A DNA stretch of 64,000 bases from the NCBI GenBank assembly GCA_030686115.1, contig CP131612.1:248001-312000 (forward strand). Direction: 5' to 3'. Numbering within the stretch: the first letter of the stretch is position 1; each line of letters starts with the position of its first letter. A program made the translations under genes and the position numbers. Shown in pieces: positions 24,465 to 56,084 of this stretch. The notes under the pieces were generated by a model. The model had not been told where the DNA came from and did no database searches. It saw nothing but the letters and a program-made list of their open reading frames with translations. This stretch comes from Psychrobacter cibarius (GTDB taxonomy: Bacteria > Pseudomonadota > Gammaproteobacteria > Pseudomonadales > Moraxellaceae).

Positions 24465-24722
24465 TTATTTAATGCGCTTTAAATATTCTAAGTAGTTAAC
24501 TAATTGTTCTCTATATTTCTCATCGGATTTAAATTTTGGAGATTCAATCCACTTATTACGATTATGAATAATTGATTCTAAGGTAAAGTCCTCATAACCA
24601 GACTCCGCTTCACAACAAGGACATATTTCATATAATGGGAATTCACCGTCAAGACCCCATGGCAAGAAATCCTCATCATAGTAACCGCATATTTTACAAC
24701 TGTGTAACTCTCTATTGAGCAT
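24465..24722 (-). CDS. CPCC-motif cysteine-rich protein, candidate toxin immunity
   Basis: Eighty-five residues starting MLNRELHSCKICGYYDED, with two CxxC-type pairs (CKIC and CPCC) around DGEFPLYEICPCCEAESGYED. This is the pattern of the Cys_rich_CPCC family, often found beside polymorphic toxins. The frame is open upstream to 24851, but ATG 24722 gives the family's usual short length. It overlaps the last 11 nt of the upstream toxin gene, implying translational coupling. I infer it is the cognate immunity protein. A zinc-binding fold is likely from the cysteines. Confidence 0.72.
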   Translation of the reverse strand: MLNRELHSCKICGYYDEDFLPWGLDGEFPLYEICPCCEAESGYEDFTLESIIHNRNKWIESPKFKSDEKYREQLVNYLEYLKRIK

Positions 24723-25587
24723 GAAAATATTCCAAATTAGTTGAGTAGGGATGTGTGGAAGCATCAGGCTTAAAAATTGTTCGAGGTGCACCATCTTTCG
24801 TTTTGACGGCAAATGTGTTTGTTTTCGGATTATATAAAACCGTATCACCATTCTTTCTTGTTTTATTTAAAGTTCCACGCGGAGGGTCACTGACAAACTC
24901 TTGAGCATGACGATAGTAGTCATTTTGAGATTTTAGCTCAGGAAATTCTTTGCTATGTTTACTCCAATGCTCTGCTAGGTTTGTATTAGGAGATCTTTTC
25001 TTAGTAGAAGTCCAGTCGAAACCTTTTTCAGAGTCTCTGTAGATATCGTTATTACTTACCGCTCGTTTTCGAATCACGTACTGTCCAGCTTTGACTCCAG
25101 TTTTAACAGATACCGCACCCAAACCCATTGGAAATGTCACAATGTCAAAAACTAATCCCGTCTCATCTCCAATTTTTTGCATACCTTCATAAAACTTCTT
25201 GGGATCACCATTAACATCGATCCATAGTGAATTAGCACGTTCCTGGTAAATCAGCTCTTCACGTGTACCTGCTCCTGCCCAAAGCCCACCATCTTGTAAT
25301 GCCTTTTTAGTGGATACATCAACCCATATTCCCAGTTCTTCATCAGACATTTCAGTTTCAGAATTTTTGTCATCGGAAGCTGCAAAGTTAGAAAGTACAG
25401 TTTCTGGATCAGTTTTAGGAAACCCCAAAGGCTCTGCCTGCGCAATACTGCCTACATCAAAGTCAGACTCCGAAAATGCTTGCTGACTAGCAATCAGTTT
25501 CGCACCGCAGCTGGTCACATCACCGCCACGTGCGATGGGTGCGCCATCAACGATAAAGGATGCATCACCACTAAGAATGGTGGTCAC
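24712..25587 (-). CDS. PAAR-remnant polymorphic toxin, 5'-broken
   Basis: The C-terminal 80 residues (AEHWSKHSKEFPEL ... GDTVLYNPKTNTFAVKTKDGAPRTIFKPD) look like the BECR-type ribonuclease toxin folds seen in colicin D/EndoU-like effectors; this is by pattern only. The N-terminus matches residues from about 47 of the intact PAAR effector at 26565-27512. Upstream of GTG 25587 the same frame continues through the PAAR core to a TAA at 25680-25678 without any ATG. A 7-bp insertion relative to the intact copy (around 25651-25664) throws the original N-terminus out of frame. It is either silent, started at GTG, or a donor cassette. Confidence 0.65.
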   Translation of the reverse strand: MTTILSGDASFIVDGAPIARGGDVTSCGAKLIASQQAFSESDFDVGSIAQAEPLGFPKTDPETVLSNFAASDDKNSETEMSDEELGIWVDVSTKKALQDGGLWAGAGTREELIYQERANSLWIDVNGDPKKFYEGMQKIGDETGLVFDIVTFPMGLGAVSVKTGVKAGQYVIRKRAVSNNDIYRDSEKGFDWTSTKKRSPNTNLAEHWSKHSKEFPELKSQNDYYRHAQEFVSDPPRGTLNKTRKNGDTVLYNPKTNTFAVKTKDGAPRTIFKPDASTHPYSTNLEYFHAQ

Positions 25588-26564: not shown

Positions 26565-27512
26565 TTAAAAATTCAATAGCAGCTCATTTAAATTGCCTTC
26601 GTTCTCATATTCATCATAACGGTTACCGTAAAAGTCGTTATATTTTTCACCTGTAGTAGATGTCTTACGATTTCCATATACTTTTCCCGCTTCACTCCAA
26701 GCGCTATGATCATCACCATATTTCTCATATGCTGATACAAGAGTTTTAAGCTCATTTGGATCACTATGCGGTTTCATAATATCTATGGCACCATTATCTA
26801 GTAACTCTTCTCTGATCATGACACTGTAAATCGCAGCGCCTCCTTCTCCTTTTAGCTTACTATCAATATAAGCATCTCTACTTGATATGTCGATCTCTCC
26901 TTGATAGGTAGCATGACCTACCTCATGAGTGAGCGCATGCATAGCCATAGCTGGCTTATCTCTATAATATTCAGAAACTACTATTTCTCTATCTTCATAA
27001 TTAGTATATGTTCCTCCAGAATCAGGACCATACATTATGTTCCAATCTGCTTCTTGCAAATCTTTGATATTTTCCTGCAAAGTAGGTGAGTCAGCTGCAA
27101 TTTTATCAACGTCATCACCTAAATTAGTAATGACATAGTCATCTTCAATAGGCTCCTCATCATCCTCTACAAAGCTATTCCCAAATAAAGCATCAGGCTC
27201 CGACTTCGCAAACTGCAAAGGCGCTGCCTGCTCAATACTACCTACATCAAAACCTGACTCCGCAAAAGACTGCTGACTAGCAATCAGCTTAGCACCGCAG
27301 CTGGTGACATCACCGCCACGTGCAATAGGCGCACCATCAACGATAAAGGAGGCATCACCACTAACAATAGTGGTGACCTTTTTGCATTTTTTACAGATGA
27401 CTTTATCGCCTTTACGCGCGATAGGGATACCGTTATGAGTGGTGTGCGGTGAGCCGGAGATGACCGTCCCACCGTGAGAGGTCTTTGCGCCGACGGTGAT
27501 ATAGGCTGCCAT
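26565..27512 (-). CDS. PAAR-domain effector with HExxH metallopeptidase-like C-terminus
   Basis: A 315-residue protein. Residues 1-85 form a PAAR domain (ITVGAKTSHGGTVISGSPHT, NGIPIARKGDKVICKKC, GAPIARGGDVTSCGAKL), which caps the VgrG spike of type VI secretion. An acidic linker (about 95-130) precedes a C-terminal zincin-like domain with HEVGH at 196-200. A Glu at about 223 in GEGGAA is a plausible third ligand. AAGGTAG precedes the ATG. A candidate immunity gene follows. No VgrG, Hcp or T6SS structural gene lies in this window, so it would be an orphan effector loaded in trans. Confidence 0.88.
   Translation of the reverse strand: MAAYITVGAKTSHGGTVISGSPHTTHNGIPIARKGDKVICKKCKKVTTIVSGDASFIVDGAPIARGGDVTSCGAKLIASQQSFAESGFDVGSIEQAAPLQFAKSEPDALFGNSFVEDDEEPIEDDYVITNLGDDVDKIAADSPTLQENIKDLQEADWNIMYGPDSGGTYTNYEDREIVVSEYYRDKPAMAMHALTHEVGHATYQGEIDISSRDAYIDSKLKGEGGAAIYSVMIREELLDNGAIDIMKPHSDPNELKTLVSAYEKYGDDHSAWSEAGKVYGNRKTSTTGEKYNDFYGNRYDEYENEGNLNELLLNF
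27216..27456 (-). repeat. PAAR-domain repeat, copy A (intact)
   Basis: The stretch of the intact effector that is closely repeated at 25422-25676. The similarity covers the PAAR core and the linker up to the Asp/Ser-rich junction, ending at CCGGAG (about 27453-27458). Confidence 0.8.
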
Positions 27513-48262: not shown

Positions 48263-51200
48263 ATGATGACCATCGCCGGACAACCGTTTCTTACCGATTT
48301 TCAGACGCAGCAACTCATCAGTCAGTTTCAGCAAAAAACCGAGCTAAATGTCAGCCAAATCCATACCCAGCAAGTGTATGTGTTATCACGAGAACTCGAA
48401 GGTGATGAGCATAAAAAAGCGCTAGACTTACTTGCTGTCGGTAGTAGCACTGTCCTTGAAGCCCCAAAAAGCAATCAATTACAAGTCATCGTAGGTCCAC
48501 GTTTTGGCACGATTTCGCCATGGGCAAGTAAAGCGACCGATATCTTTAATAACTGTGAAATTGCGATCAATCGCATTGAGCGCGTCGTTGTTTATACGCT
48601 TACCATCGATAGCAAGATCAGTGAAAAGCTGTCTACTGCCGCTGAGCAGGTGTTGTTTGACCGTATGACGCAGAGCTTGGTCTATGACTTGAGCGATGTC
48701 AGTAAGTTGTTCGACGATCAAGCGCCAGCATCACTGAATCATATCGATGTCATCGGACAAGGTCAGTCAGCGTTAGAATTAGCCAATACCCAGTTCGGCT
48801 TTGCGCTATCTGTCGAAGATATTGACTATCTGATGAATGCTTATGTTAATGAGCTTAAGCGCAATCCAACCGATGTTGAGCTGATGATGTTTGCACAAGC
48901 AAACTCAGAGCATTGCCGTCATAAGATTTTCAACGCTGAATGGACAGTGGATGGTGAAGTTCAGCCAAAGTCACTGTTTCAAATGATTAAGAATACTTAT
49001 AAAGCCAATCCACAAGGTATCTTGTCTGCCTATAAAGACAACGCTGCGGTGATGGCAGGGTCTGAGGGTATGCGTTTTTATCCTATCCCGACTGACGCGA
49101 TGGATGCCAGTTCAATTCACCCTTATGACTTTCATCAAGAAGCAATCGATATCTTAATGAAAGTTGAGACGCATAATCATCCAACCGCGATTGCCCCTTA
49201 TTCTGGTGCAGCGACAGGTGCGGGCGGTGAGATTCGTGATGAAGGCGCGACTGGTCGTGGCGGTAAGCCAAAAGCAGGTCTGACAGGCTTCCATGTATCA
49301 CACTTGCATATCCCAGAGCTTGCTGAAAAATGGGAGCAATCAGGTCAGTTGAGTACTCAGGATTACGGTACGCCAGATCGTATGGCAACCAGTCTTGAGA
49401 TCATGACCGAAGCACCACTCGGTTCAGCCAACTTCTCAAACGAGTTTGGTCGTCCAAACCTATGCGGTTATTTCCGTAGTTTTCAGCTTGATACCTCAGC
49501 GGCAAAAGACGGCAGCGAAATGCGCGGCTATCATAAGCCAATTATGCTGGCAGGTGGTTACGGCAATATTAAACGCAACCTCATTGAAAAAAACACCATT
49601 CAGCAAGGTGATTTATTAATCGTCCTTGGTGGCCCTGCGATGCAGATTGGTCTAGGCGGTGGTGCAGCATCTTCAGTTGATAGCGGTTCACTTGATGAAG
49701 GCTTGGACTTTGCTTCTGTTCAGCGTGATAACGCTGAGATGGAGCGTCGCTGTCAAGAAGTGATGGATCGCTGCTGGGCGCTGGCTGGTAATGACGTAGA
49801 TGCCAGTAATAACGGTAAAGATGGTAACCCTATTGTCTCATTGCATGATGTTGGCGCAGGTGGTTTATCTAATGCAATGCCAGAACTGGTCAATGACCAT
49901 GAAATGGGCGCGATACTAAATCTGCGTAAAATTCCATCGTTAGAAGCGGGCATGTCACCAATGGCCATCTGGTCAAACGAAGCGCAAGAGCGTTATGTCC
50001 TTGCGATTCGTCCAGAAAGCGAAGCCCAATTCGATGCCATCTGTGCGCGTGAGCGTTGCCCGTATGCCATCTTGGGAACAGCCACGGATGTGCGTCAGCT
50101 AGTCGTTGACGATACCTTGCTCGCTGAGCAGCCTGTCGATATGCCGATGCAAGTATTACTCGGTGGTACGCCGAAGATGAAGCGTAGCTTTGAGCGTCAT
50201 GACAACAGCTTACCTGCATTAGAGTTAGGCGACGTCAATTTAGCTGAGTCTATCAAAGACGTGTTGCGTCACCCAACGGTCGCCAGCAAATCATTTTTGA
50301 TCAGTATTGGTGACCGTTCTATCACTGGTATGGTAGTCCGTGATCAGTATGTGGGTCGCTATCAAGTGCCTGTATCAGATTGTGCTGTGACGGCGTCAGG
50401 CTTGATCGCGCTCAATGGTCAGGTGATGAGCGGTGAAGCGATGAGTATCGGTGAGCGTACACCAGTTGCCCTAATCAGCCCACAAGCCTCAGCACGACTG
50501 GCAATTGGCGAAGCGATTACCAACATCGCTGGCGCACGTATTGCTCAGTTGTCTGATATCACGATGTCAGCGAACTGGATGGCAGCCTGTGGTGATGATG
50601 CCGAAGATGCAGCACTATTTGATGCGGTATATACAGTCGGCGAAGAGCTGTGCCCAGCACTGGGTATCGCGATTCCAGTCGGTAAAGACTCGCTATCGAT
50701 GCGTGCCAACTGGACTGACAGTAGTGAAGCAGGCGAGACGGATAAATCAGTCGTGTCACCTATGAGCCTCGTGATTACGGCATTTGCTCCTGTGGTTGAC
50801 GTGGCAAAAACGCTAACGCCTGAGCTAATCAATGGCGACAGCGCGTTTTACCGTATTGATTTGTCTAAAGGTAAGCTACGTCTAGGCGGTTCAATTCTTG
50901 CGCAAACGCTGAGCCAATTGGGTAACGATTGCCCAGATTTAGCACAGCCAAGCGACTTAGTCGACTTCTTTAACTTTGTTCAAGCGGGTAACGCGCAAGG
51001 CGTTATCAGCGCTTATCACGATATCGGTGATGGTGGTCTACTAGCGACTATCGCTGAGATGCAGTTCACCAGCCGTCAAGGTATCAAGCTGTCACTGACG
51101 GATGACAATCTGCTCGGTCAACTGTTCAGTGAAGAGCTGGGCGCGGTCATCCAAGTATTGCCAGAAAACGTCGCGGCTCTAATGCAGTTGGCAGAAGAGT

Positions 51201-52261
51201 TTCACGTTGCTGATATGCTCAGCCTCGTGGGTCAAAGCTCGGAAGAAGACAGTCTGCTTATTCAAACGCCAACGCTCATGGGCGATGATACTCTCAGCTT
51301 TAGCCGTACTGAATTGCAGCAAGCGTGGACTCAGGTCAGTTATCAAATCGCGCGTCGCCGTGACAATCCTGCGTGCGTACAGCAAGAGTATGAATTAATC
51401 GCTGATGCGAGCCATCAAGGCCTCATCGCTGCGCCGAACTTTGATCTTAATCAAAAAGTTGAAGAACCATATTTAGCCAGTCGCGAGAATAAGCCAAGAG
51501 TTGCTATCTTGCGTGAGCAAGGCGTCAACGGTCAGACAGAAATGGCAGCAGGCTTTACGCAAGCTGGATTTGAAGCAGTCGATGTACACATGAGCGATCT
51601 ATTGAATGGTCGTATCAATCTACGTGACTTCGATGGTTTAGTTGCTTGTGGTGGTTTTAGTTATGGTGACGTACTGGGCGCAGGCTCTGGTTGGGCAAAC
51701 TCTATCTTGTTCCATGACGAGCTACGCATGCAGTTTGTCCGTTTCTTTGCCCGTCCTGAGACCTTCTCGCTAGGTGTCTGTAACGGTTGTCAAATGATGG
51801 CTCAGTTAAAAGACCTCATCCCAGGTGCGGACAACTTCCCACGCTTCATCGCTAACGAGTCAGCTCGTTTTGAAGCGCGTACGGTCAATGTGAAAATCGA
51901 GCGTACCAAGTCTATCCTGTTCAAAGGCATGCAAGACAGCATCTTGCCAATCGCTGTGGCGCATGGTGAAGGCTATGCCACACTAGACAACACAGAGATT
52001 GACGGTATGGCCAAACACGGTCAGCTCGCGATGCGTTATGTCGATAGCCAAGGTCATCCAACTGAGACGTATCCGCTCAATCCAAACGGTTCGGTCGGCG
52101 GTGTCACGGGTCTGTGTAGCACTGATGGTCGTGTGACGATTATGATGCCACATCCTGAGCGTAACCTAAAAGCCTATAACCACAGCTGGAAACCAGAAGA
52201 GTGGGATGAAGACGGCGCGTGGATGCGTATGTTCCGTAACGCTCGTGCTTGGTTGCGCTAG
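48263..52261 (+). CDS. purL: Phosphoribosylformylglycinamidine synthase
   Basis: The large single-chain FGAM synthase of de novo purine synthesis (FGAR + Gln + ATP to FGAM). The 1332 residues carry an N-terminal PurS-like region, the synthetase signature MFAQANSEHCRHKIFNA, MKVETHNHPTAIAPYSGAATGAGGEIRDEG and LGGGAASSVDSG. The C-terminal class I glutaminase domain has the nucleophile Cys in LGVCNGCQMMAQL and the His/Glu in MMPHPERN. Length matches E. coli PurL (about 1295). The start may be either of two consecutive ATGs. A terminator follows. Confidence 0.97.
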   Translation: MMTIAGQPFLTDFQTQQLISQFQQKTELNVSQIHTQQVYVLSRELEGDEHKKALDLLAVGSSTVLEAPKSNQLQVIVGPRFGTISPWASKATDIFNNCEIAINRIERVVVYTLTIDSKISEKLSTAAEQVLFDRMTQSLVYDLSDVSKLFDDQAPASLNHIDVIGQGQSALELANTQFGFALSVEDIDYLMNAYVNELKRNPTDVELMMFAQANSEHCRHKIFNAEWTVDGEVQPKSLFQMIKNTYKANPQGILSAYKDNAAVMAGSEGMRFYPIPTDAMDASSIHPYDFHQEAIDILMKVETHNHPTAIAPYSGAATGAGGEIRDEGATGRGGKPKAGLTGFHVSHLHIPELAEKWEQSGQLSTQDYGTPDRMATSLEIMTEAPLGSANFSNEFGRPNLCGYFRSFQLDTSAAKDGSEMRGYHKPIMLAGGYGNIKRNLIEKNTIQQGDLLIVLGGPAMQIGLGGGAASSVDSGSLDEGLDFASVQRDNAEMERRCQEVMDRCWALAGNDVDASNNGKDGNPIVSLHDVGAGGLSNAMPELVNDHEMGAILNLRKIPSLEAGMSPMAIWSNEAQERYVLAIRPESEAQFDAICARERCPYAILGTATDVRQLVVDDTLLAEQPVDMPMQVLLGGTPKMKRSFERHDNSLPALELGDVNLAESIKDVLRHPTVASKSFLISIGDRSITGMVVRDQYVGRYQVPVSDCAVTASGLIALNGQVMSGEAMSIGERTPVALISPQASARLAIGEAITNIAGARIAQLSDITMSANWMAACGDDAEDAALFDAVYTVGEELCPALGIAIPVGKDSLSMRANWTDSSEAGETDKSVVSPMSLVITAFAPVVDVAKTLTPELINGDSAFYRIDLSKGKLRLGGSILAQTLSQLGNDCPDLAQPSDLVDFFNFVQAGNAQGVISAYHDIGDGGLLATIAEMQFTSRQGIKLSLTDDNLLGQLFSEELGAVIQVLPENVAALMQLAEEFHVADMLSLVGQSSEEDSLLIQTPTLMGDDTLSFSRTELQQAWTQVSYQIARRRDNPACVQQEYELIADASHQGLIAAPNFDLNQKVEEPYLASRENKPRVAILREQGVNGQTEMAAGFTQAGFEAVDVHMSDLLNGRINLRDFDGLVACGGFSYGDVLGAGSGWANSILFHDELRMQFVRFFARPETFSLGVCNGCQMMAQLKDLIPGADNFPRFIANESARFEARTVNVKIERTKSILFKGMQDSILPIAVAHGEGYATLDNTEIDGMAKHGQLAMRYVDSQGHPTETYPLNPNGSVGGVTGLCSTDGRVTIMMPHPERNLKAYNHSWKPEEWDEDGAWMRMFRNARAWLR

Positions 52262-52392
52262 CCGCAAACCTAGATGCTTGATTAACTTCGTCAAACTTGC
52301 TGAGCCTACGACATGTAGTGCTTGCGCATGTTTTCCTCGCTACTCAAACCTCTAGCAATTGCTTATAATTTTAGATAGCGGTTTTTTAAATG

Positions 52393-52420
52393 AAAAGGTG
52401 GGCTTAGGCTCACCTTTTTT
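52393..52420 (+). terminator. Terminator of purL
   Basis: AAAAGGTG.GC pairs with GC.CACCTTTT around a TTAG loop, then T residues. Confidence 0.85.
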
Positions 52421-52486
52421 GTGTTTGGAGTTTGAGTATTTAAATGTTTAAAGTAACGCCTTAATTTTGTTATTAAGTAATGTAGA

Positions 52487-52520
52487 GTAGGTTGGTGTGG
52501 AGCTTGCGACACCCAACGGT
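52487..52520. repeat. Dispersed-repeat-like palindrome
   Basis: GTAGGTTGGTGTGGAGCTTGCGACACCCAACG forms a TTGGTGT.../...ACACCCAA hairpin. Similar sequences (GTAGGTTGGG...ACCCAAC) occur widely between genes in gammaproteobacteria. Only one copy is in this window. Confidence 0.55.
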
Positions 52521-52732
52521 TTAGGGGAGCTAATCCCGCCTTCCGCTTGTATCTGCCAGTTTGGGCGCGGCACTGGCTACGGTTTGGGTCGTCGCTTGCT
52601 TCGCGTCGCCACCCCAAAACCTAGCCATCGCAACTTGCCTAAACCAACAGGATACCGCTACAGTCGGGGCTAAAACGCGCTTATGAATGACTATTTTATG
52701 ATAAATTAGTCTGAACTTTAATTTTAGTCTTA

Positions 52733-52756
52733 TTGGTGCGCTGGGCGCACCCTACG
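52733..52756. repeat. Dispersed-repeat-like palindrome
   Basis: GGTGCGC TGG GCGCACC (52735-52751) is a perfect 7-bp hairpin within TTGGTGCG...GCACCCTACG. It is the kind of short palindrome scattered in many gammaproteobacterial genomes. It ends about 27 bp before the start of the downstream operon. Confidence 0.55.
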
Positions 52757-52783
52757 AACTAATTGCTTTCTTTGGAGATTAGA

Positions 52784-53767
52784 ATGAACAATCAATCTGA
52801 ACTGAATAAAGGCGAAAACAAGCCACACGAAAAATCAGACGATAATTTACCGAGAAAATGTGGCATTGTAATGCCTATTGCAAGTATGGAGGGCTATCCT
52901 GAATCTCATTGGAAAGATGTTAAAAGAATAATAGAATCGGTTATTAAAGAAGCTAATTTTGAAGCTAGATTAGTCAGTGATGCGGATGATATAGGTGTTA
53001 TTCACAAACGTATTGTTCAAAACTTATATGATAATCCGATGATAGTTTGCGATATAAGCGGTAGAAATCCAAATGTCATGTTTGAGCTAGGATTACGTCT
53101 AGCTTTCGATAAACCAACAATTATTATAAAAGATGAAGTAACACCTTATTCTTTCGATACATCTGTTATTGAACATTTAAGTTATCCAAAAGACTTAAGA
53201 TATCATGATATTGAAATCTTCAAAGAAAATTTAAAAGATAGAATAAAAAAGACTTATAAGGCATATGAAAATGACCCTGAAAATTACTCCACCTTCTTAA
53301 AAAACTATGGTGCTTTTAAAGCTCCATTAATTACCGAAGAAACAGTTTCTGTTGATAGATATGTATTAGATACTCTTAAAGATCTTCAAGTATCTGTCAG
53401 TCGCCTCTCTCATTCTATGAGCTCTAAACCCATAAACTACAACAACAAAACTCAGTTTATAAGAAATGCGTCAGCACACCAACTAGATTTTTATGGTCAT
53501 GAAGAACCCAATATTTTAGAGTTTTATCTTGACGGAATTAGAGATAAAGACGAGTTATCTATAAACCTACAAGATGTCTTAGCGGAATTTAGTTTTCTTA
53601 TAGAAAAAGTAAGTTTTAACTCAGGGAAGCTCTTTATTAAAGTTAAGAGTAGTAGTCACGAGGATCTTGATATTGTTGGAGAAGTAATCTCTCAAATAGA
53701 AGGGTTAGGTTATGAGATAGATGAGTTAGATCATAATATATATAGACTATCTGAAGGTAGGGGATAG
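52784..53767 (+). CDS. Nucleoside 2-deoxyribosyltransferase/TIR-like domain protein
   Basis: A 327-residue, AT-rich gene. After a polar start, residues about 24-140 look like a flavodoxin-like NDT/TIR-like fold: CGIVMPIAS, then DIGVIHKRIVQNLYDNPMIVCDISG and NPNVMFELGLRLAFDKPTIIIKDE. Glu101 in MFELG sits where NDT enzymes have the nucleophile. Such domains cleave N-glycosidic bonds of nucleotides or NAD+ in several immune systems. The C-terminal domain (about 200-327) is unrecognised. GGAG six bases before ATG 52784 sets the start. The next gene is 4 nt downstream, so they form an operon. Confidence 0.78.
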   Translation: MNNQSELNKGENKPHEKSDDNLPRKCGIVMPIASMEGYPESHWKDVKRIIESVIKEANFEARLVSDADDIGVIHKRIVQNLYDNPMIVCDISGRNPNVMFELGLRLAFDKPTIIIKDEVTPYSFDTSVIEHLSYPKDLRYHDIEIFKENLKDRIKKTYKAYENDPENYSTFLKNYGAFKAPLITEETVSVDRYVLDTLKDLQVSVSRLSHSMSSKPINYNNKTQFIRNASAHQLDFYGHEEPNILEFYLDGIRDKDELSINLQDVLAEFSFLIEKVSFNSGKLFIKVKSSSHEDLDIVGEVISQIEGLGYEIDELDHNIYRLSEGRG

Positions 53768-53771
53768 ATTA

Positions 53772-54737
53772 ATGACTCCAAAAGAGTTCGAACAGATAGT
53801 TGGTCGCATAATCTCAATTATGGTTAAATCAGGTGACGAAGTAGTTTGGAATGATAAAATTCCTGATCCTGATAACTCAAAGCAGATCAGACAAATCGAT
53901 ATTGCGATTAATCATGACGGTTTAAAAAGTCATATTGAGTGCAGGCATCATAGCGCACCCCAAGACGTAAAATGGATTGAAGAGTTAATAGGTAGAAAGT
54001 TGAGTCTCGATGCTTCTGCGATGATAGCGGTATCTAGCTCAGGTTTTACCGAAGGTGCAACTAAAAAAGCTGAAAAACGTGGTATTTTTCTTCATACTCT
54101 AACTGAACATTCACCTGACATAGCCCATACATGGGGTCGTCGATCTAAGTTTGAGATTGGATATTATGGTTTTCATCCCTTAGATATACAGCTAGTATTT
54201 GATGAGTTACCAAAAGCCAGTCTTCAAGAAGTTGCAAGCGCCTTCAAAGTTAAGAATGATTTCATCGAGACCACTTTTAATGAGCTAAAATACGCAATAA
54301 ATGGAAATGAAGATATAAAGGCTTTCCCATATGATTTACAAGTAGAAATTGATGCTGGATGTATTGATTTATTCGATAAAAGTATTAAAAAAGTTAAGGT
54401 GAAAGCGACAACTTATTCTATGAAAGAGGTTGTAGAGCTTCCATCGCTAACGACATTTTCGCAAAGCTCTCATGACTATCAAGATTTAGCTAGAGTTGAA
54501 AGATCAGATGCTCATAATTCGGAAATGATTTTTGCAGGATCAAGAGTGAAGATACAAATTGACATAACCAAAATATTGAATATAGAAAGTAACAAAATTT
54601 TTTCAGGTCGTATCGATTTGGGTTTACGTCGAAAAACTCAAATTCCTGAAGTAGAATGTATAGGTAGTGCTGACCATGAAATATCACTTTATGATGTCGG
54701 TTTTAGTGTGAGCGATTTATCTGGTAATGCGTTGTAA
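53772..54737 (+). CDS. Mrr-like PD-(D/E)xK restriction endonuclease-type protein
   Basis: A 321-residue protein whose N-terminal ~110 residues fit an Mrr/REase-like fold: FEQIVGRIISIM, QIRQIDIAI with Asp43, HIECRHH with Glu56 and an Arg where Lys is usual (ECR for ExK), then VKWIEELIGRKLSLDASAMIAVSSSGFTEGATKKAEKRGI. The C-terminal half (about 125-321) is beta-rich and unrecognised; it may sense or bind a target. AGGGGA precedes the ATG. It is cotranscribed with the NDT/TIR-like gene. A DNA-targeting effector of a defence system is the best guess. The Lys-to-Arg change could alter catalysis. Confidence 0.8.
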   Translation: MTPKEFEQIVGRIISIMVKSGDEVVWNDKIPDPDNSKQIRQIDIAINHDGLKSHIECRHHSAPQDVKWIEELIGRKLSLDASAMIAVSSSGFTEGATKKAEKRGIFLHTLTEHSPDIAHTWGRRSKFEIGYYGFHPLDIQLVFDELPKASLQEVASAFKVKNDFIETTFNELKYAINGNEDIKAFPYDLQVEIDAGCIDLFDKSIKKVKVKATTYSMKEVVELPSLTTFSQSSHDYQDLARVERSDAHNSEMIFAGSRVKIQIDITKILNIESNKIFSGRIDLGLRRKTQIPEVECIGSADHEISLYDVGFSVSDLSGNAL

Positions 54738-54747
54738 TTTGATTTAC

Positions 54748-54939
54748 TCACTCACGTTCCAAGTTACTATTTACAGTCTCTCTCTGAGCCCCAGCAATCA
54801 ACTCACGCACCCGAGCACTTTCCCTCAGCACACAAGCATCATAAGCAGAGAGCGGTTCGGACTCTTGCTCTTTTTCCTTATCTTGCTTGGCTTTTTCTGC
54901 TAAATACTTTTCAAGTTTATCGGCTTCAGAATCGCTCAT
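54748..54939 (-). CDS. Small acidic coiled-coil-like hypothetical protein
   Basis: Sixty-three residues (MSDSEADKLEKYLAEKAKQ...), highly charged, rich in Glu, Lys and Ala, so probably a helix or coiled coil with no cysteines but one in DACVLRES. GGGGA six bases before the ATG is a good ribosome-binding site. It converges on the candidate defence operon, with only 10 bp between stops, and has no recognised family. Confidence 0.6.
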   Translation of the reverse strand: MSDSEADKLEKYLAEKAKQDKEKEQESEPLSAYDACVLRESARVRELIAGAQRETVNSNLERE

Positions 54940-54969: not shown

Positions 54970-54999
54970 AAAAAACGGCACTGAAATCAGTGCCGTTTT
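54970..54999 (-). terminator. Terminator of tdh
   Basis: AAAACGGCACTGA pairs with TCAGTGCCGTTTT across a 2-nt AA centre (effectively a small loop), followed on the minus strand by T residues. It lies about 60 bp past the tdh stop. Confidence 0.85.
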
Positions 55000-55058: not shown

Positions 55059-56084
55059 TCAATCCCAGCTTAAAATCACTTTACCACATTGCCCACTTTC
55101 CATGATATCAAAGCCTTCTTGAAAGTCATCAATGTGCATGCGATGGGTAATGATGGGCGATAGATCAATACCGCTAATCAGCATTTGCTCCATCTGATAC
55201 CACGTCTCCCACATCTCACGGCCATAAATACCTTTTAGGGTTAATGCCTTAAAAATAATCTTGCTCCAATCCACCGTGGTGGTGTTAGGTAAAATACCCA
55301 AGAGAGAGATTTTAGAGCCGTTATACATATTACTAATCATCGAATCAAAGGCCTGAGGCGAGCCTGACATCTCAAGCCCAATATCAAAGCCGTGCATTTT
55401 TAACTCAGCAATGGCACCTTCGATGGTTTCCCCTTTGGCTGGGTTGATGGTCATCGTCGCGCCCATTTTTTTGGCAAGCGCTAGGCGATAATCACTGATA
55501 TCACTGACCACAATATTACGCGCCCCTGCGAAGCGGCAAATCGCTGTCGCCATTGAACCAATCAGTCCCGCACCCGTAATCAGGACATCCTCACCAAGGA
55601 CAGGAAATGAAAGGGCAGTATGCGTGGCATTGCCAAAGGGGTCCATAATGGCTGCCATCTCATCGCTAATACGCTCATCGAGCTTGATGACATTATCGGC
55701 AGGTATCACCAAATATTCGGCAAACGCGCCATCGCGGTCGACGCCCACGCCGATGGTGTTTTCACACACATGCAGCTTGCCACGGCGACAGTTACGGCAA
55801 TGCCCGCAAGCGATATGTCCTTCGCCAGTGACTCGGTCGCCCAGTTCAAAGTGCTTGACGCCATCGCCTATTTCACTAATGATACCGACGTATTCGTGTC
55901 CGATGATCATCGGCGTCTTGATGGTTCGTTCTGACCATTCATCCCATTTGTAAATGTGCAAATCTGTACCACAAATGGCGGTTTTCTTAATTTTAATTTT
56001 AACGTCATTGATGCCAACAGTGGGTTCTGGCATGTCTTGCATCCAGATGCCTTTTTTGGCATGGGCTTTAACCAGTGCTTTCAT
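55059..56084 (-). CDS. tdh: L-threonine 3-dehydrogenase
   Basis: Tdh oxidises threonine to 2-amino-3-ketobutyrate with NAD+. A zinc medium-chain dehydrogenase of 341 residues, the E. coli length. Catalytic-zinc Cys38 lies in [24 protein letters not shown] follows, the structural zinc site is [15 protein letters not shown], and the Rossmann motif is GAGLIGSMA near 170. It lies downstream of kbl on the same strand with 78 bp between, forming the kbl-tdh threonine-to-glycine operon. Its terminator is just beyond. Confidence 0.97.

Follow-up and report, generated by a model that had tools for sequence, protein, structure and literature searches.

Candidate anti-phage genes of separate distribution, a phage-type NDT/TIR-fold gene and an Mrr-type gene, paired in a purL-side cargo hotspot of Psychrobacter

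Genes between purL and tdh

We analysed a stretch of 64,000 nucleotides of Psychrobacter cibarius DNA (contig CP131612.1, positions 248,001 to 312,000; the window), in which two co-oriented genes, called here P1 and P2, lie between purL and tdh. P1 encodes a protein with an NDT/TIR-type fold (NDT, nucleoside deoxyribosyltransferase) and P2 an Mrr-type protein with a PD-(D/E)xK nuclease fold. We propose, with a probability of about 0.58, that they are two separately mobile anti-phage genes that have become closely paired in a cargo hotspot beside purL, P1 being an abortive-infection effector and P2 a stand-alone nuclease. The features of the locus are:

48263..52261, + strand: purL, left border of the cargo hotspot
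52262..52783, no strand: leader from purL to P1, with a terminator-like stem at 52392-52419
52784..53767, + strand: P1, putative NDT/TIR-fold enzyme of 327 amino acids, with head, helical linker and variable tail
53051..53092, + strand: P1 active-site-like motif DISGRNPNVMFELG, residues 90-103 with Glu101, containing residues invariant in 90 sequences
53417..53764, + strand: P1 variable tail, residues 212-327, from tail clustering
53772..54737, + strand: P2, Mrr-type PD-(D/E)xK protein of 321 amino acids with a beta-rich C-terminal half, from PF04471, a structure model and PDB folds
53898..53945, + strand: P2 motif, D43 to E56-C57-R58, from an alignment of 31 sequences
54748..54939, - strand: open reading frame (ORF) of 63 amino acids before tdh, one of the right-hand markers of the hotspot
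55059..56084, - strand: tdh, right border of the hotspot at this locus

P1 is read from the ATG at 52784 and P2 follows after 4 nt in the same orientation. As an earlier note on this DNA had described, both genes are AT-rich: G+C content is 0.321 in P1 and 0.358 in P2 against 0.433 in the window, and at third codon positions 0.229 and 0.252 against 0.466-0.515 in purL, kbl and tdh. Their placement between purL and tdh was also right, with the 63-amino-acid frame intervening before tdh; the interval otherwise holds only mechanically called ORFs of 63-84 amino acids. The dispersed repeats said to lie next to the genes were not recovered: at E <= 0.001 the stretch 52440-52775 matches only itself in its own genome, and a blastn comparison of the two flanks with the window yielded a second copy only for a 28-bp palindrome at 54972-54999, checks that leave shorter repeats possible. 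A promoter scan found 8 candidates against 9.7 in shuffled sequences, that is, no excess.

Between the genomes G000 and G004, the ratio of nonsynonymous to synonymous substitution rates is 0.07 for P1 (0.02 over residues 1-200 and 0.26 over the remainder) and 0.22 for P2. Both genes evolve under purifying selection, and because these ratios are low we regard them as real genes.

The P1 and P2 protein families

P1 consists of a head (about residues 22-185), a helical linker (about 190-213) and a variable tail running from about residue 212-214 to 327. Structure comparison places the head in the NDT/TIR superfamily, with a flavodoxin-like fold and a conserved glutamate, and the best structural matches are MilB and DNPH1. 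The NDT/TIR-like core DISGRNPNVMFELG with Glu101, picked out before from the letters, is thereby confirmed in fold, and its residue numbers are correct. D90, S92, N95, N97, V98, E101, G103 and R105 are invariant in 90 aligned sequences (3 from Psychrobacter, 2 from other bacteria and 85 viral; viral relatives were cut to 87 at 85% identity and 220-420 amino acids, and L286 and L303 were then left out). In PHROGs, whose profiles carry no curated cut-off, P1 matches phrog_3634 (E = 4.1e-21; P1 residues 24-246, profile positions 4-220 of 237) and phrog_10872 (E = 1.3e-15; residues 8-243), both listed there as of unknown function. The Pfam NDT family PF05014 does not match the window P1 at E <= 10 or at 0.01, and matches 44 of the 90 family members at E <= 0.01 (best 3.1e-05). 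Sequence searches of the PDB were of no help: most returned nothing credible, and one listed a designed Rossmann protein (E = 0.0018) and AF1548 (E = 0.095).

The tail behaves very differently from the head. Clustering by blastp (E <= 1e-4, at least 40 aligned residues, heads taken as residues 23-205) joins the 90 heads into one cluster and splits the 90 tails into 73, two tails being under 40 residues and hence too short for clustering. The window tail belongs to a cluster with no members among the 90 other than G000, G004 and G480, and in profile-profile comparison this group found none of the 85 other tails above 50% probability, as was likewise the case with reversed tails. The median tail score stays at the level of shuffled sequences until head identity exceeds about 70%. 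With heads 80-90% identical (19 pairs), the tail score lies above the 99th percentile of shuffles in 12 pairs and not in 7; with heads more than 90% identical it does so in 8/8, the pairs being non-independent throughout. At the DNA level, 209 pairs of viral loci share a head block: similarity continues through the gene end in 3, breaks in the tail and resumes past the gene in 23 (24 loci), and breaks with no resumed flank in 183. A stricter measure, applied to 17 pairs with both head and downstream similarity, finds less than 20% of the tail covered in 14 and more than half in 3. In some phage pairs DNA likeness ends near codon 190 and returns just past the stop codon; L277 and L281 are 89% identical to nucleotide 579, have no blastn similarity over the remaining gene, and return to 89% identity 86 nt past the L277 stop. 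Judged by their sequences the tails are essentially unnamed, because beyond the NDT model Pfam gave only four families, with one member each and weak scores (best E 0.0025-0.0098). This combination of conserved head and hypervariable tail suggests a single toxic enzyme whose specificity tails can be exchanged.

Relatives of P1 are found mainly in phages. A tblastn search with P1 gave 42 phage records, including Staphylococcus, Streptococcus, Klebsiella, Escherichia, Dorea and Latilactobacillus phages, together with one plasmid record bearing phage genes and one IMG/VR contig at 67% (L015); a wider IMG/VR scan confirmed 411 stretches, of which the best 80 of 411 were kept. Bacterial matches are rarer and mostly weak (8/96 relatives and 23/369 genomes of the class, its own genome counted in both). 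Among 5426 E. coli genomes, 23 carry a close relative of the 689R2 gene; it is named "hypothetical protein" in the 20 listed, and in one of these the match also contains an IS1 transposase. Gene order in Pantoea pESL4.2 is cI, P1-like gene, integrase. The P1-like gene follows the integrase in Klebsiella phage 1 LV-2017, is oriented as the repressor side in Javan37 and TMW 1.46 P1, and is flanked by hypothetical genes in a Dorea phage. The P1 family is large, phage-borne and seemingly unstudied; a search by title and opening of the abstract, covering part of the literature, found no description of the family or of the P1-P2 pairing. The most parsimonious view is that P1 entered the hotspot from a temperate phage and ended up ahead of an Mrr-type nuclease gene.

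P2 matches the Pfam family PF04471 (Mrr_cat) with 32.6 bits, above the cut-off of 21, and its whole-chain model has a mean predicted local distance difference test score of 90.7 and a beta-rich C-terminal half. In fold, the nuclease domain resembles PDB entries of Can2 and Card1, two nucleases whose structures were determined with cyclic oligoadenylate. The earlier note had assigned an Mrr-like pattern with D43 and E56-C57-R58, which holds to the residue, and had taken ECR in place of ExK for an oddity, which does not: ECR is the norm of the P2 family. Across 31 sequences E7, D43 and C57 never vary, and conservation of E56 and R58 is at least 90%; an alignment of 27 sequences agrees on C57, E56 and R58. 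Phage and plasmid rows did not enter the structure alignments. Of the residues D, E and K expected in an active PD-(D/E)xK motif, D43 and E56 are conserved, and R58 stands in place of the lysine in at least 90% of family members; the subfamily is marked by a QDVKWIE-type block. The idea of a degenerate ECR site was rejected, since ECR is usual across these alignments. Searches of P2 in PADLOC, NCBIfam and PHROGs were unproductive, with no PADLOC model matched, and the "inactive REase" (restriction endonuclease) model NA-iREase1 matched weakly (E = 0.045, 14.2 bits against a cut-off of 27).

By record titles, the P2 relatives at L181-L214 belong to Bacteroidota, Planctomycetota, Acidobacteriota, methanogenic archaea and Proteobacteria. 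Three of the loci (L014, L027 and L189) have P2 relatives in cassette-like arrays or next to integrase-like ORFs (integrase assigned by eye), which suggests that P2 relatives travel as single cassettes.

The pair and its hotspot in Psychrobacter

Among 105 Psychrobacter genomes, P1 has matches in 7 (in G049 only a distant one, 29%) and P2 in 3. The intact pair stands at the purL site in two of them, G000 and G004. In G045 the same site holds an intact P2 and a P1 interrupted near codon 121; both ends of the insert share terminal sequence, with a 3-bp target repeat (read by eye), and we take it to be IS3-like. G480 has an intact P1 and a P2 reduced to a decayed 5' stub, and G037 and G366 carry a P1 with an internal deletion followed by the same stub. 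Because these three further genomes keep a P2 stub after P1, we regard the pair as ancestral at the purL site. It was probably formed once in a Psychrobacter clade, either gene having since been retained without the other. Another combination of TIR and NDT type was seen in the same genus: in G049 (L007:258-1884) a TIR-like ORF of 136 amino acids overlaps an NDT/TIR-like ORF of 407 amino acids by a few bases, near a MobA-like ORF (TIR and MobA named by eye).

The proposal of a two-gene defence operon came with a suggested survey of homologues for co-occurrence and for defence context. Co-occurrence failed. No P2-type ORF was found within up to about 4 kb on each side in any of 98 viral P1 loci, near-duplicates included, and across 35 P2 loci on genome contigs, several of them cut by contig ends, P1 is adjacent only in Psychrobacter immobilis, where it is interrupted. 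At L189, a distant P1 relative lies 3.7 kb from the P2 relative with five ORFs of 87-322 amino acids between them. The most recurrent neighbour cluster at the viral P1 loci occurs in no more than 9/98, and a same-strand ORF within 40 nt is present on one side or the other in 37/98 and on neither in 61/98; a small VRR-nuclease-like ORF (by eye) stands upstream in 7/98 and a helicase-like ORF downstream in 7. An obligate two-gene system was rejected on the lack of co-occurrence outside Psychrobacter at these loci and the retention of single genes in G480 and G045. The pair looks like a local association of two separate anti-phage genes that landed side by side, and adjacency alone is insufficient for naming two-gene systems.

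The expected defence-rich context, on the other hand, was found, and the hotspot beside purL in Psychrobacter is now mapped. The purL end was located in 102/105 genomes, of which 4 were unfetched (purL less than 700 bp from the contig end), leaving 98 regions. With tdh, kbl, pdxJ or the 63-amino-acid ORF as right-hand markers, and 21/98 regions with no marker in reach set aside, 77 intervals of 143 to 6536 bp were obtained, containing 153 ORFs of at least 100 amino acids that fall into 70 clusters of at most 14 members. Thirty of the 70 cluster representatives were scanned singly; 15 match a PADLOC model at E <= 1e-8 and 15 match none, a share biased upward by the choice, made by eye for size and likely defence content. 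Matches, some spanning only part of the model, are to RmrA, RmrT, HamA, HamB, LmuB, ThsB, PtuA/AriA-type ATPases, PDC-S33 and PDC-S49; by name the cargo comprises Hachiman, Lamassu-like, RMR, Thoeris-like and candidate defence genes. All 70 representatives scanned as a bag gave 215 PADLOC families at E <= 1e-5, many of them redundant, with several overlapping models for one family; the Pfam matches include Cap15, SLATT and ABC-3C domains alongside others such as transposase, efflux and LysR domains.

Two further observations concern the hotspot. The cluster of 14 is represented by a protein of about 1045 amino acids (L130:538-3675) that matches HD-CE and, at a borderline level, HATPase_c_3, and has no PADLOC match at E <= 1e-8. 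In 7/105 genomes (G017, G026, G030, G034, G042, G449 and G467) the purL 3' end recurs as a truncated copy of 35-69 codons at a distance of about 0.8-6 kb, a pattern that integration of elements at this end might leave.

Possible roles of P1 and P2

A defence role for P1 and P2 is likely, because the purL-side hotspot carries defence-type genes, and the phage origin of P1 also fits. P1 would most likely be a phage-derived abortive-infection effector. Its head may cleave the N-glycosidic bond of a nucleotide or of NAD+ by means of Glu101, while the hypervariable C-terminal tail would keep the head silent and sense an infection signal. Upon infection by a matching phage, the head would be released and the cell stopped. 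P2 would most likely be a nuclease that cuts incoming DNA alone through D43, E56 and R58, its C-terminal half selecting the substrate.

Neither the fold of the P1 head nor the nuclease fold of P2 is new; the new element is the design of a conserved enzyme with a hypervariable tail in a large unnamed phage family. P1 matches phrog_3634 and phrog_10872, and differs in lying in a bacterial hotspot and not in a recognised prophage. From PF05014, MilB and DNPH1 enzymes it differs by its extra variable tail, its phage accessory context and the lack of a PF05014 match. P2 departs from Mrr-type restriction endonucleases (PF04471) by ECR for ExK and by its own beta-rich C-terminal half. PMC9122126 describes single-gene TIR-NLR defence on a P4-like phage satellite, which provides a working precedent for a stand-alone TIR effector: it shares with P1 a stand-alone TIR protein, a phage-related element and a sensor region, the sensor there being a STAND nucleoside triphosphatase with tetratricopeptide repeats whereas that of P1 would be the C-terminal tail of about 90 residues. 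PMC3710099 proposes that NDT domains are toxins in abortive-infection proteins and that the attached domains bind viral targets. By analogy this fits our interpretation of the P1 head and tail, although in those proteins NDT or Mrr is joined to variable N-terminal domains (AbiJ-NTD) and in P1 the tail is C-terminal.

Several points weigh against our proposal. Lysine has given way to arginine in nearly the whole P2 family, so nuclease activity is not assured. The structural kinship of the P1 head with both NDT-type and TIR-type proteins leaves its substrate unfixed. The P1-like gene lies in the early/replication region of E. coli 606R2, Klebsiella phi12.5 and Staphylococcus SA13, which makes a role in phage nucleotide metabolism possible. 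Some tails retain faint protein similarity (L277/L281, score 67), so that part of the tail variation appears to come from far-reaching divergence within a single tail type, and a new domain need not be involved every time. No clear case of the same tail on distant heads was seen, only three weak pairs (heads 0.48-0.52, scores 60-67). The 4-nt gap could be compatible with joint function in genomes bearing both genes, and the single-gene losses may merely reflect decay of a dead system.

Joint function would mean a true two-gene system of Thoeris-like or CBASS-like type, in which P1, on sensing a phage, signals through a nucleotide or depletes NAD+ and P2 is the linked nuclease, which either becomes activated or brings the defence to completion. 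The close spacing and common orientation speak for it, as do the adjacency at the same site in three genomes (both genes intact in two), the P2 stubs after P1 in three more, and the likeness of the P2 nuclease domain to the cyclic-oligoadenylate nucleases Can2 and Card1. We think it unlikely, given the 0/98 viral loci, the single P. immobilis case among 35 genome-contig loci (some cut by contig ends) and the intact P1 with a P2 stub in G480 and P2 with an interrupted P1 in G045. Neither P1 nor P2 has a ThsA or ThsB match in PADLOC at E <= 10. A CD-NTase neighbour, as in CBASS, was not found in the purL-tdh interval, and P1 differs from the TIR effectors of CBASS and TIR-STING by having no cyclase-sized neighbour and no STING domain match.

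P1 might instead be an N-glycosidase of phage nucleotide metabolism, like DNPH1 or MilB, carried over by chance and without any part in defence. The top structural matches point this way, together with the DNA polymerase and helicase genes near the P1-like gene of E. coli phage 606R2 and the VRR-nuclease-like and helicase-like neighbours in 7/98 viral loci each. From such an enzyme one would not expect a hypervariable, replaced tail, a defence-rich hotspot or cI and integrase neighbours, and we consider this rather improbable. That P2 is a catalytically dead PD-(D/E)xK domain which binds DNA and regulates or inhibits P1 is, in our judgement, very unlikely. It would agree with the lysine-to-arginine change and the weak NA-iREase1 match; yet the invariant E7, D43 and C57 and the nearly invariant E56 are what a working metal site would be expected to show, and P2 relatives elsewhere do not stand next to relatives of P1.

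A broader proposal for P1 can be made, though only tentatively. The P1 family may be a large undescribed class of temperate-phage immunity proteins that share a conserved killing enzyme of NDT/TIR type and whose C-terminal recognition tail, exchanged or diversified as phages recombine, gives each prophage a private specificity against rivals, one such gene having been captured by Psychrobacter into a defence hotspot of its chromosome. In that case phrog_3634 ("unknown function") would be an effector that is widespread in prophages and whose sensor can be switched, and natural phage pairs differing almost solely in the tail would lend themselves to experiments on how the sensor chooses its trigger.

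Elsewhere in the window, two PAAR-like ORFs (by eye) with differing C-terminal parts lie on the minus strand at 24712-25587 and 26565-27512, in an AT-rich stretch; they are perhaps secretion-linked effectors.
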